A stretch of DNA of 64,000 nucleotides. It comes from a virus. The position numbers were made by a program, and so were the translations under genes. The notes beneath the pieces are model-generated. The model searched no databases, was not told the DNA's origin, and saw only the letters and a list, made by a program, of their open reading frames with translations. Location of the stretch: positions 18,617 to 82,616 of the IMG/VR virus record IMGVR_UViG_3300025141_016306; one strand, given 5' to 3'. Shown in pieces: positions 57,084-59,878 of this stretch (positions within the stretch are counted from its first letter, which is position 1; every line of letters starts with the position of its first letter).

Positions 57084-58238
57084 TTACATGCCGCCGAGAA
57101 GCGTCATTGCTACCAATCCAGGGAGAGGCTCTTTTATATAAACCCCTGAAAAAAGTGTTTCGGCTCTTCCGCCAACATATGAAAAAGCAGCTTCTAATTG
57201 GTTGCTGATTATAGGATCATTAGCCATTTCAGGAGTGGTAACCAAGAGCAGCACACCCATTTTGGGGTGCCGCGAAGGTTTAGAGCACGGGGAGGAATTT
57301 AAACATCCTTGAAGAACTGTTGCACCTAGATCTGAAATACGAGGATTACGGACTACAGTGCTTCCTAGAAGTATGCGTCCTGGCGCGTACAAGCACTTTT
57401 CAAGATCTTTTGAGTCAAATGCTTGGATTGGAGAAGCCTCCGTCGCAAGTTTGAGGATCTGCGCGAACAGTTTGGCAAAATTCAAGTTGGCCGCTGGGTA
57501 CATATTAAGCATCCCGACTTTTCCGCGCAGAAGATGGAGTTGTTTTTCGTTATCAATAACAATATGCGGCTCTTTTTTAACATCTTGCAACGCTTTATTT
57601 GAATTTGCTTTAATGGTAGGGTTTAGAAGTTCCTGCGCAGAGGGTTTACTAATAATATAAATGACTCTCCCGGTGGCCTCTATCGAAGACAGATAACGGG
57701 TTAAACACTTATGAAGCTCATAGGATGCGCTACCAGTTCCACCGCCACCTCCGACCAGTACAAACAGCCAGTCAACTTTACCAATTCGAGTCCTTAAGGC
57801 ATCCTCCACTAGTGCGCTATTGTCACCTAGAACTTGCTTTCCAAGTTGGATATCTTTACCAACACCGTCGGCACCCGGGATTAAAAGAAAATTTTCCGGA
57901 TCGATGCCGGGCGGCTGGTCTTTTTCCGTGGTATTGATTAGAAGAGTTTTATGAAACCCTAAATCCAAAAAGGCTTTCGCCATCTTTCCACCACCACCGC
58001 CTAGGCCAAGGAAAGCACATTTAATGGCGCTTGGTGCGGAGTTCTCCGGTAACATTTTTTCGTCAGGAGAGGGGTCGTCGCTGTACGCTTCAGCAAAATC
58101 AAAGTTATCGTAACCTAACGCGTCCTCCGTGGGCATATCCCAGCTACTAGTGGTTGACTCTTCATCTAGTTCTTCCGCGGGGGCCTCTACAGACTCCTCT
58201 TCATATTCTTCGTATTCTTGTTGATCGTCATCGCTCAT
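57084..58238 (-). CDS. Tubulin/FtsZ-like GTPase with acidic N-terminal extension, 384 aa
   Basis: From about residue 72 the fold matches tubulin/FtsZ: FLGLGGGGGKMAKAFLDLGF (N-terminal nucleotide loop) and LFVLVGGGGGTGSASYEL, containing the GGGTGS-type signature loop at about residue 164. The first about 70 residues are strongly acidic (runs of Glu, Asp and Tyr) and likely disordered, while the C terminus (VAMTLLGGM) is short and not acidic. Known phage tubulins (PhuZ) position replicating phage DNA; this one is divergent. The residues of the GTPase T7 loop are not certain by eye. An AGGAG precedes the ATG, 56 bases past the tmRNA 3' end. Confidence 0.8.
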   Translation of the reverse strand: MSDDDQQEYEEYEEESVEAPAEELDEESTTSSWDMPTEDALGYDNFDFAEAYSDDPSPDEKMLPENSAPSAIKCAFLGLGGGGGKMAKAFLDLGFHKTLLINTTEKDQPPGIDPENFLLIPGADGVGKDIQLGKQVLGDNSALVEDALRTRIGKVDWLFVLVGGGGGTGSASYELHKCLTRYLSSIEATGRVIYIISKPSAQELLNPTIKANSNKALQDVKKEPHIVIDNEKQLHLLRGKVGMLNMYPAANLNFAKLFAQILKLATEASPIQAFDSKDLEKCLYAPGRILLGSTVVRNPRISDLGATVLQGCLNSSPCSKPSRHPKMGVLLLVTTPEMANDPIISNQLEAAFSYVGGRAETLFSGVYIKEPLPGLVAMTLLGGM

Positions 58239-58445
58239 ATGAGATCTCCTATATATTTAACATAATTAGTCGCCAGGTAGGTAAAAATTAAATTTGGTGG
58301 AGACGTTGGGAGTCGAACCCAAGTCCAGAAAAGTTAACTGTTAACGTCATTCACAAGAATAGATGCAATCACCGCCGTTGCACCAGCCACCCAACATCCT
58401 ATCGGGGAATCCATTTGCCACTCTTAAAGGTGTTGGCTACCAAAA

Positions 58446-58468
58446 TTATTTAGTTAATAACTAAATAA
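58446..58468 (-). repeat. Inverted repeat within tmRNA (helix of a downstream pseudoknot or arm)
   Basis: An 11-bp perfect inverted repeat around a single central base (TTATTTAGTTA, A, TAACTAAATAA), lying 3' of the tag. It probably forms one of the AU-rich helices in the pseudoknot-bearing arc of the tmRNA. With almost no loop, the helix must open partly at its centre. Confidence 0.6.
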
Positions 58469-58520
58469 AGTTCCCTTTTTTTCTAATTTTTGATATCAAG
58501 GCAGTTAGAAAGCCCCGTGA

Positions 58521-58562
58521 TTAAGCCGCTAGGGCGTAATCAAATTCAACGTTATCGTTGGC
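58521..58562 (-). CDS. tmRNA proteolysis tag ORF: ANDNVEFDYALAA
   Basis: The in-RNA reading frame starts at the resume codon GCC (58560-58562) and encodes A-N-D-N-V-E-F-D-Y-A-L-A-A followed by TAA. The C-terminal ALAA and N-terminal AND are classic tag features recognised by ClpXP-type proteases. There is no start codon; translation enters here from a stalled ribosome. At 13 residues it is longer than the 11-residue E. coli tag. The tag sequence might be matched to a host lineage. Confidence 0.93.
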   Translation of the reverse strand, partial: ANDNVEFDYALAA

Positions 58563-58575
58563 TTTTATAAAGGTT

Positions 58576-58603
58576 GAGTATTTTGGCTGTGTTACTCACA
58601 CAG
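58576..58603 (-). other. tmRNA pseudoknot PK1
   Basis: On the RNA strand CTGTGT (58598-58603) pairs with ACACAG (58587-58592) around the loop GAGTA (58593-58597). The loop in turn pairs with TACTC (58576-58580), giving an H-type pseudoknot about 13 bases upstream of the resume codon. All eleven base pairs are perfect. PK1 is needed in tmRNAs for correct placement of the resume codon, so this supports function. Confidence 0.88.
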
Positions 58604-58612
58604 TCTTGCACG

Positions 58613-59011
58613 CTAGTCAGATCCGTTTTCTGTCGAAACCGTTTCGTCCCCATGTCTTTCCTTTTCAAAAAACGATTCAATATCGAATTTCTTAATTAGT
58701 TTTCTGAAGTCAGTATAGTCGATTCCTAGGAACTTTGCGCTTTCTTTCTTGGAGCGACATACACTAACGGCTGTTTTCAATACAGCGTCCTGAGTAATAT
58801 CCCGCATAGAATGCCACAAAGGTATACCGTAGAACTTACCGCCTAAAAATCTGGTAGAGAGTTCTAATTTAATAGCTATTAAATCTTCCAATGGAATATT
58901 GTTAATAGTATTAAGCGCTTCTTTATTTAAGATGTCTTCTTTAGTTAGTTTGTTTATTATACTATAATTCTTATAAAGACCGTAGTATTTATTTCTTTTA
59001 TTCCAAGACAT
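58613..59011 (-). CDS. Fis-like helix-turn-helix protein, 132 aa; 3' end overlaps tmRNA
   Basis: The C-terminal third (about residues 89-109, KESAKFLGIDYTDFRKLIKKF) is a Fis/NtrC-type helix-turn-helix, suggesting a DNA-binding regulator. The N-terminal part (MSWNKRNKYYGLYK) is basic and aromatic. The last 12 codons (GDETVSTENGSD) and the TAG stop (58613-58615) lie inside the tmRNA 5' region: the codon GGG is also tmRNA bases 1-3. No Shine-Dalgarno is visible before the ATG. A TATAAATA promoter is about 30 bases upstream. This gene and the tmRNA are thus likely on one transcript, with processing of one destroying the other. Confidence 0.75.
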   Translation of the reverse strand: MSWNKRNKYYGLYKNYSIINKLTKEDILNKEALNTINNIPLEDLIAIKLELSTRFLGGKFYGIPLWHSMRDITQDAVLKTAVSVCRSKKESAKFLGIDYTDFRKLIKKFDIESFFEKERHGDETVSTENGSD

Positions 59012-59040: not shown

Positions 59041-59048
59041 TATTTATA
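59041..59048 (-). promoter_or_regulatory. T4-type late promoter TATAAATA
   Basis: A perfect match to the T4 late promoter box on the minus strand, in the 72-bp gap between two minus-strand genes and 30 bases before the helix-turn-helix gene. Transcription would start a few bases further on and run through that gene into the tmRNA. The gp55-like sigma factor at 27572-28264 is the likely reader. No -35 element is expected for this promoter class. Confidence 0.65.
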
Positions 59049-59083
59049 TAGATTATATCATATTTGAAGGGATAAGTAAAGAA

Positions 59084-59878
59084 CTAAATTGCAAGTTCAT
59101 CAGTTTCTTCGCCTGCAACGTCAAGCGGGGCGCCGGCGCCTTCGTAATCAGGAGAATCTGGTTCATCGCTAGAGACTTGAAGTTCTTCTTCAAATTTATC
59201 GAAATACAGTTTAAGATTGGTAAGTAAATAATCATAGAATAGATCGCGATCTTCAGTATTTGCCAGGCTCTCAAAAGCATCTATAATTTGTTTTTCTACT
59301 TTATTGAAAGTGATGGAAGCAAAATTTCTTCCCGTGAGGTCTTCGCCGGCAATTGTGAAGGTATCTTCGTCTTCCTCTTCTGGTTCTTCGTCTTCCATGT
59401 CAATGTCTCGTACCGGGATGAATTTGTCCTCGACGGCTTCTTCTTCGTCGACATTGATGGTGACATCCTGTTCTTCTAAGGCTTCTGCAGCTTCTTCGGT
59501 ATCTAGATCTGCCACCACTTCAACCGGCTTGAGAGTGTTTTCAATGGCATTTAGAATATGAGATCGAAAAGACGTGCGCTGTTCTGTAGCACTAGTAAGC
59601 GCTTTATAACCTTCTTCGACAATTGGGATAATATTTCTCAGAAGATCTTCCAGCACATTGATGCCTGTGTTTTCATGAGGCTGGGCATCAGGAACGTCGG
59701 TCTTCGCGGCTTCAACAATCAACTTGCGAACAAGAGACCGCAAACGTTCTTCTGCTTTGCCTTCTTGCAGGCTCTGCGCCTTCTTGTTTTCCAAAAAGCG
59801 CTTTAAATCTTTTCGAATGAGTTGGCGCAAGCGCTTTTCTTCTTTTATTTCGTTAATCATTTCATCACGATTGATCAT
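59084..59878 (-). CDS. Acidic coiled-coil protein, 264 aa, unknown
   Basis: The N-terminal 70 residues are basic and helical (EEKRLRQLIRKDLKRFLEN). The middle (about 125-170) is extremely acidic, with runs of Glu and Asp and a DMEDEEPEEEDEDTF stretch, and the C terminus is acidic again. A GAGGG site precedes the ATG. Composition of this type is seen in phage scaffold or core proteins, but no motif proves it. It lies directly after the ligase/nucleotidyltransferase fusion gene. Confidence 0.6.
   Translation of the reverse strand: MINRDEMINEIKEEKRLRQLIRKDLKRFLENKKAQSLQEGKAEERLRSLVRKLIVEAAKTDVPDAQPHENTGINVLEDLLRNIIPIVEEGYKALTSATEQRTSFRSHILNAIENTLKPVEVVADLDTEEAAEALEEQDVTINVDEEEAVEDKFIPVRDIDMEDEEPEEEDEDTFTIAGEDLTGRNFASITFNKVEKQIIDAFESLANTEDRDLFYDYLLTNLKLYFDKFEEELQVSSDEPDSPDYEGAGAPLDVAGEETDELAI

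Follow-up and report, generated by a model that had tools for sequence, protein, structure and literature searches.

The locus

The features of the window, by which we mean the whole stretch of 64,000 nucleotides analysed here, all lie on its minus strand where they are described below. A gene of 132 codons (58613..59011, ATG at 59011, TAG at 58613-58615) encodes an HTH protein that we call Fis-like, and the end of this gene runs into a one-piece tmRNA (ssrA) gene with an encoded CCA (58295..58651). ARAGORN and Rfam agree on the tmRNA, 58651-58295 (-); its match to RF00023 scores 94.4 bits (E 1.7e-35, cut-off 47 bits) and covers the model completely (1-374), and the tag reading frame ANDNVEFDYALAA-stop is placed by ARAGORN at tmRNA nt 90-131 (58521..58562). 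As the initial annotation had claimed, the Fis-like gene shares its end with the tmRNA: codons 121-132, its last 12, together with the stop codon coincide with the first 39 bases of the tmRNA (58613..58651). Codon 121 starts at tmRNA nt 1, so that the junction falls exactly on a codon boundary, and with ARAGORN, Rfam and the reading frame in agreement the overlap is confirmed as real and exact.

This is the only tmRNA in the 82.6-kb virus record from which the window is taken. Directly downstream of it lies a conserved gene for a tubulin/FtsZ (PhuZ)-like GTPase (57084..58238; Pfam Tubulin E 1.5e-4, PHROG PhuZ E 0.017), and upstream of the Fis-like gene is an open reading frame (59084..59878) for which family searches returned no match; the gaps flanking the locus are 72 and 56 nt. 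Relatives of the PhuZ-like gene in IMG/VR number at least 92, and many of them also adjoin a tmRNA.

The Fis-like protein

The AlphaFold model of the protein has pLDDT values mostly above 70, which drop below 50 only for residues 1-5 and for residues 121-132, the part encoded within the tmRNA. The top Foldseek matches are nearly all to Fis, led by those of E. coli and Pseudomonas; their TM scores, taken on the target, are 0.5-0.65, and the probability reaches 0.97, but E is about 0.8. Neither Pfam HTH_8 nor HTH_29 matches the window protein; among 12 relatives HTH_8 weakly matches two (best E 0.011) and HTH_29 six (E 5.8e-4), and a match to the Fis family (HTH_8) profile above cut-off was reached neither by the window protein nor by the 12 relatives. 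We are moderately confident in the initial annotation's term Fis-like, which we keep rather than call the protein a member of Fis, as its modelled fold resembles Fis and the profile match is weak.

As residues 121-132 are predicted to be disordered, cleavage at the tmRNA 5′ end would take off only the tail and the stop codon, and the 120-codon message 5′ of the cut would encode the whole folded domain. Charged residues stand at the C terminus of the full-length protein. For the tail there is no database match, the codon-position counts of the tmRNA-encoded part give no clear coding signature, and no selection on the tail at the codon level was seen beyond the conservation of the tmRNA itself. 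Before the tmRNA, variation is rich in third-position changes (0.45 vs 0.22 and 0.14). No clear Shine-Dalgarno sequence precedes the Fis-like gene; we considered this as a sign of tuned-down translation and rejected the idea, since the tmRNA-less relatives are also without one.

Relatives and history of the overlap

Relatives were sought in IMG/VR by protein, tag sequence, PhuZ-like neighbour and tmRNA pattern, and they form a large, uncultured and seemingly marine phage group. The Fis-like, PhuZ-like and WKVYK proteins (the last described below) have no relative among the isolated phages of the phage collection, and in a host search of 84,980 genomes neither the tag pattern nor the Fis-like family found a match. 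The overlap is present in the same frame in 15 distinct phages, down to about 45-50% protein identity, and all 15 place a codon boundary at tmRNA nt 1. A same-strand RNA gene thus lies in the end of an open reading frame and is kept there in relatives, as in overlaps of the selB/selC type. That the reading frame arose by chance or through misassembly might be suggested by the missing Shine-Dalgarno sequence and the matchless tail, and is nevertheless very improbable: the identical overlap recurs in 15 distinct contigs, the protein family is conserved with third-position-rich variation before the tmRNA, and only 1 of 20,000 first-order Markov sequences, simulated with the composition of the real upstream region, gave an open reading frame of at least 120 codons entering the tmRNA.

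Across the Fis family, 17 distinct loci show the overlap (15 of these in one clade), 50 have a tmRNA downstream at a gap of at least 35 nt, 81 have no tmRNA found near the gene, some of them at contig ends, and a single locus has a gap shorter than 35 nt, of 10 nt. Each overlap contig that was checked holds one tmRNA, and ten relatives of the tmRNA-less group lack a tmRNA over the entire contig. In an IQ-TREE analysis of 61 family members, from which the tmRNA-encoded tail was left out, the 15 overlap members fall within one supported clade of 36 (99/95), the rest of which consists of a 20-member tmRNA-less clade and L147, with a gap of 35 nt. Three changes of state suffice on this tree and are read most simply as one gain and two losses. 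Two distant Fis-like genes in a larger quick tree, L262 and L285, have frames that end at tmRNA nt 27; their placement is weak, and they may represent one or two further gains. Conservation, by which the initial annotation had proposed that the overlap be judged, favours its reading within the clade, where 15 phages keep the overlap and L147 has lost it. Outside the clade, in its sister clades, the coding frame stops short of the tmRNA, an outcome that the same annotation had named as a refutation. Given about 50 Fis-family loci with gaps of at least 35 nt, 20 close relatives that are tmRNA-less and the loss in L147, the overlap is not essential.

This history bears on the possibility that the arrangement is a by-product of packing, in which loss of the spacer put the tmRNA behind the gene and the first in-frame stop within the tmRNA came into use; processing would still occur, enough protein would be made before cleavage, and the nonstop fragment would have no selected role. 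We regard this as a serious contender, at somewhat less than even odds. The overlap was lost at least twice, and the tmRNA-encoded tail is predicted to be disordered, with its sequence set by the tmRNA, both as packing would have it. Against it, short gaps are nearly absent from the Fis-like loci, which apart from the 10-nt locus either overlap or are spaced by at least 35 nt, and the window locus, with its flanking gaps of 72 and 56 nt, is not tightly packed elsewhere. Furthermore, HTH and tmRNA are spaced by 8, 9, 10 or 11 codons in the main clade and the frame is never broken, which means at least three length changes that preserved the frame; chance would keep the frame about 1 time in 27 in this small sample, assuming that length changes are free with respect to frame.

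Integrity of the tmRNA within the overlap

The tmRNA of the window has an acceptor stem GGGGACG/CGUCUCC with a G3.U70 pair of the alanine-accepting type, and its tag ends in YALAA, a degradation tag of the ALAA type. Acceptor stems are paired at 7/7 positions in all 15 of the overlap members, in the variants GGGGACG/CGUCUCC, GGGGGCG/CGCCUCC, GGGGAUG/CAUCUCC and GGGGGUG/CACCUCC, with compensatory changes at stem pairs 5 and 6. These changes also alter the protein (GDE vs GGE), and as pairing is kept despite them, the ends of the tmRNA appear to stay functional and the tmRNA to dictate the tail of the protein. Overlap members and other tmRNAs share a preference for U at the position preceding the predicted cut (12/15 and 24/32, respectively). 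An in-frame stop within the tmRNA is a weak sign of selection, since a stop in frame 0 is reached by about nt 39 in 41/48 other tmRNAs as well.

The CCA, encoded in the window and in other tmRNAs, is unencoded at the tmRNA 3′ end in L003/L008, L010, L021, L026, L030, L134 and L137 (CTCCACT or CTCCATC), so that CCA addition by the host would be required there. For L137, pairing is predicted between the acceptor 5′ strand and the coding sequence immediately 5′ of the tmRNA (..TCTCCTTAT, followed by GGGGGTG.., with P about 0.98); a general pairing switch was rejected, as such pairing is predicted in no other member.

Other loci of the family have a gap of 200-290 nt from the Fis-like stop to the tmRNA (L036, L041, L043, L046/L061, L059 and L029), and a conserved leader lies directly 5′ of the tmRNA in these: ..CAATGACTCTCTTGAAGG..AAAAGGAGTCTAGC.TTGTTGGTGTGAAGAACCAACACCC..TTCTTTTAAAATAT and then the tmRNA. 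Scanning five of these loci gave no match of the leader to an Rfam family, and by analogy with the glutamine riboswitch of the Melnitz phage (see below) it is possibly a riboswitch-like element or small RNA that controls the phage tmRNA.

A second gene family that overlaps the tmRNA

A survey of other phage tmRNAs identified a protein family unrelated to the Fis-like family, of about 69 aa and beginning MWKVYK, that is encoded directly 5′ of the tmRNA. It has no Pfam, PHROG or isolate match and is represented by 68 distinct loci (L168, L200, L202, L204, L218, L220, L253, L274, L279, L286, L317 and L337-L414). The WKVYK gene overlaps the tmRNA 5′ end in 46 of the 68 loci (46/59 where both lie close together), with stops at tmRNA nt 8 (29 loci), 10 (5), 13 (2), 27 (6), 40 (3) and 41 (1), that is, in all three frames, and the stop is often the TGA of GGGGATGA. 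Of the other loci, 10 abut the tmRNA (gap 0-10 nt), 3 are more distant and 9 have no tmRNA nearby. That a second, unrelated family also overlaps the tmRNA makes the overlap of gene and tmRNA a recurrent design in these phages. This evidence cuts both ways: the arrangement is readily and repeatedly reached and kept, yet the use of all three frames and the 10 abutting loci are to be expected of tight packing with shared transcription, even if nonstop formation is under no selection.

Promoters and the origin of the tmRNA transcript

A sigma-70-like promoter, TTTACT-17-TATAAT with TG before the -10 element, is predicted at 59052..59080 (-), 40 nt 5′ of the Fis-like ATG. The octamer TATAAATA, which we take to resemble a T4 late promoter, also lies upstream of the gene, at 59041..59048 (-). 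From the Fis-like start codon to the tmRNA no promoter-like or terminator-like site was found on the minus strand of the window. In tandem relatives with 42-54 nt spacers between gene and tmRNA, by comparison, TTGACA-17-TATAAT-like promoters often lie in the spacer (L040, L018, L052 and L019). The promoter scores of the overlap members are like those of shuffled sequence (median p 0.52), and the difference between all overlap and all tandem loci is only suggestive (Mann-Whitney p 0.07). With a recognisable promoter only before the Fis-like gene, the tmRNA of the overlap members is most likely cut from the Fis-like transcript, as far as sequence can indicate, though phage promoters of another type are possible.

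The competing view, that the tmRNA comes mostly from a promoter inside the Fis-like gene and that the overlap of frames seldom matters to the regulator message, seems unlikely to us. A borderline internal site, TTCAAA-16-TATACT, is seen 60 nt before the tmRNA in L009 (p 0.02), and a scan for sigma-70 sites would miss phage-specific promoters, of which the T4-late-like octamer upstream of the gene might be a hint. On the other side, nothing scores at the homologous positions of the window or of L008, the overlap loci as a group look random, and the window itself is free of promoter-like sites in this interval.

A motif WTATCAYA is conserved about 20-45 nt 5′ of many Fis-like start codons (e.g. 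L021, L024, L013 and L029), sometimes 16 nt after TTGCCA, and may be a promoter -10 element or an operator for the Fis-like protein.

A model for production of the regulator and the tmRNA

We propose a model, to which we assign a probability of roughly 0.55, in which a fusion has placed the start of the tmRNA gene within the final part of the Fis-like gene, whose transcript is the source of the tmRNA, and RNase P cleavage would leave a nonstop message and a tagged protein of 120 residues. RNase P is known to generate the 5′ ends of tmRNAs (PMC3985003), and from this processing and the tmRNA 5′ end the cut is predicted at 58651..58652 (-), between 58652, the third base of codon 120 (U at -1), and 58651, which is G1 of the tmRNA. 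Cleavage at tmRNA nt 1, which separates codon 120 of the regulator from codon 121, would free the tmRNA and leave the upstream message without its last 12 codons and stop codon. Folding of the tmRNA must wait for transcription of its 3′ half, since the acceptor stem includes the tmRNA 3′ end, and the leading ribosomes could therefore finish first; any that pass ahead of folding would make the full protein of 132 residues. A ribosome terminating at tmRNA nt 39 would cover the 5′ strand of the acceptor stem or hold it unfolded, which would make translation and tmRNA folding mutually exclusive at any moment. Ribosomes that translate after cleavage would reach the 3′ end of the message and stall, and ribosomes stalled on a nonstop message are standard substrates of tmRNA-SmpB. 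Rescue would then tag the 120-residue protein for proteolysis, the product being this protein followed by a tag that ends in YALAA. The SmpB would be supplied by the host, and a search of the 82.6-kb phage record, possibly a fragment, gave no match to SmpB. Regulator would thereby be made from each transcript in one limited burst, to be followed by a tmRNA. The initial annotation's wording, by which intact regulator and tmRNA are alternative products of a transcript, is too strict: a ribosome that follows the polymerase closely can complete translation while the tmRNA 3′ end has yet to be made, and one transcript could yield both products in sequence.

Co-transcription, RNase P cleavage within the overlap, nonstop tagging and any regulatory benefit are what we infer; that release of the tmRNA by RNase P would produce a nonstop message is expected from known tmRNA processing. 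The anatomy that such a circuit needs is present and conserved, namely a single tmRNA with no recognisable promoter of its own, a junction at a codon boundary, a compensated acceptor stem and a predicted disordered tail, and the circuit is to this extent partly supported. The overlap is well supported as an architecture and plausible as a putative circuit. A further step, that this is a selected feedback circuit, in which excision of the tmRNA makes the regulator message a substrate of that same tmRNA, the regulator reports tmRNA/SmpB capacity and unrelated genes have been recruited likewise, is more doubtful, and we put it forward tentatively. If it is true, truncated but fully folded regulator would accumulate when rescue is saturated.

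Comparison with known systems

One of the two closest precedents, the other being ArfA, is selC, the gene for tRNA-Sec, which is nested in or overlaps the selB open reading frame in bacteria, and for which a nonstop mRNA formed by RNA processing, with protein and RNA as alternative products, was proposed on bioinformatic grounds; overlap can also be partial, the stop codon then lying within the tRNA, and the trait is conserved and not essential (Mukai 2021, PMC8124441). Both systems embed an RNase P substrate in the 3′ part of an open reading frame. There, however, tRNA-Sec is combined with its partner protein SelB, whereas here the RNA is a tmRNA, which itself acts on nonstop messages, and the gene is phage-borne with two unrelated protein families involved. 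In E. coli the nonstop message of ArfA (YhdL) is made by RNase III, and its product is tagged and repressed by tmRNA (PMC3989581). As with ArfA, the Fis-like gene would be cut in its coding region to leave a nearly complete protein on a nonstop message, and output would rise when tmRNA is scarce; the enzyme would be RNase P rather than RNase III, the 3′ piece cut from ArfA is not a tmRNA, and the ArfA protein serves in rescue rather than as a DNA-binding protein. OppZ and CarZ belong to a known class of small RNAs that derive from the 3′ ends of mRNAs; RNase E releases them, and they work through base pairing (PMC7398697). They share with our model a functional RNA derived from an mRNA 3′ end, its output tied to transcription of the gene, and differ in being RNase E-released, base-pairing and not tRNA-like. 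Finally, the Methylophilales phage Melnitz has a two-piece tmRNA under a glutamine riboswitch, upstream of a coactivator gene (PMC9004378). Here too a marine phage tmRNA sits beside a transcription regulator gene in one operon; unlike ours, the Melnitz tmRNA is two-piece and riboswitch-controlled, with no reported overlap of a reading frame. Our literature search, which covered few subscription papers, found no description of a tmRNA cut from a coding region.

The tmRNA is known as a housekeeping RNA that acts on the broken messages of other genes and frees the ribosomes stalled there. In the model proposed here its own birth would create a broken message and so tie a regulator and the rescue RNA together in one transcript, which would extend the rare selB/selC type of overlap to an excised RNA that acts on its own leftover. 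The locus would also provide a natural test of an RNase P site lying within a translated region, and it may offer a reason for the carriage of tmRNA by phages.
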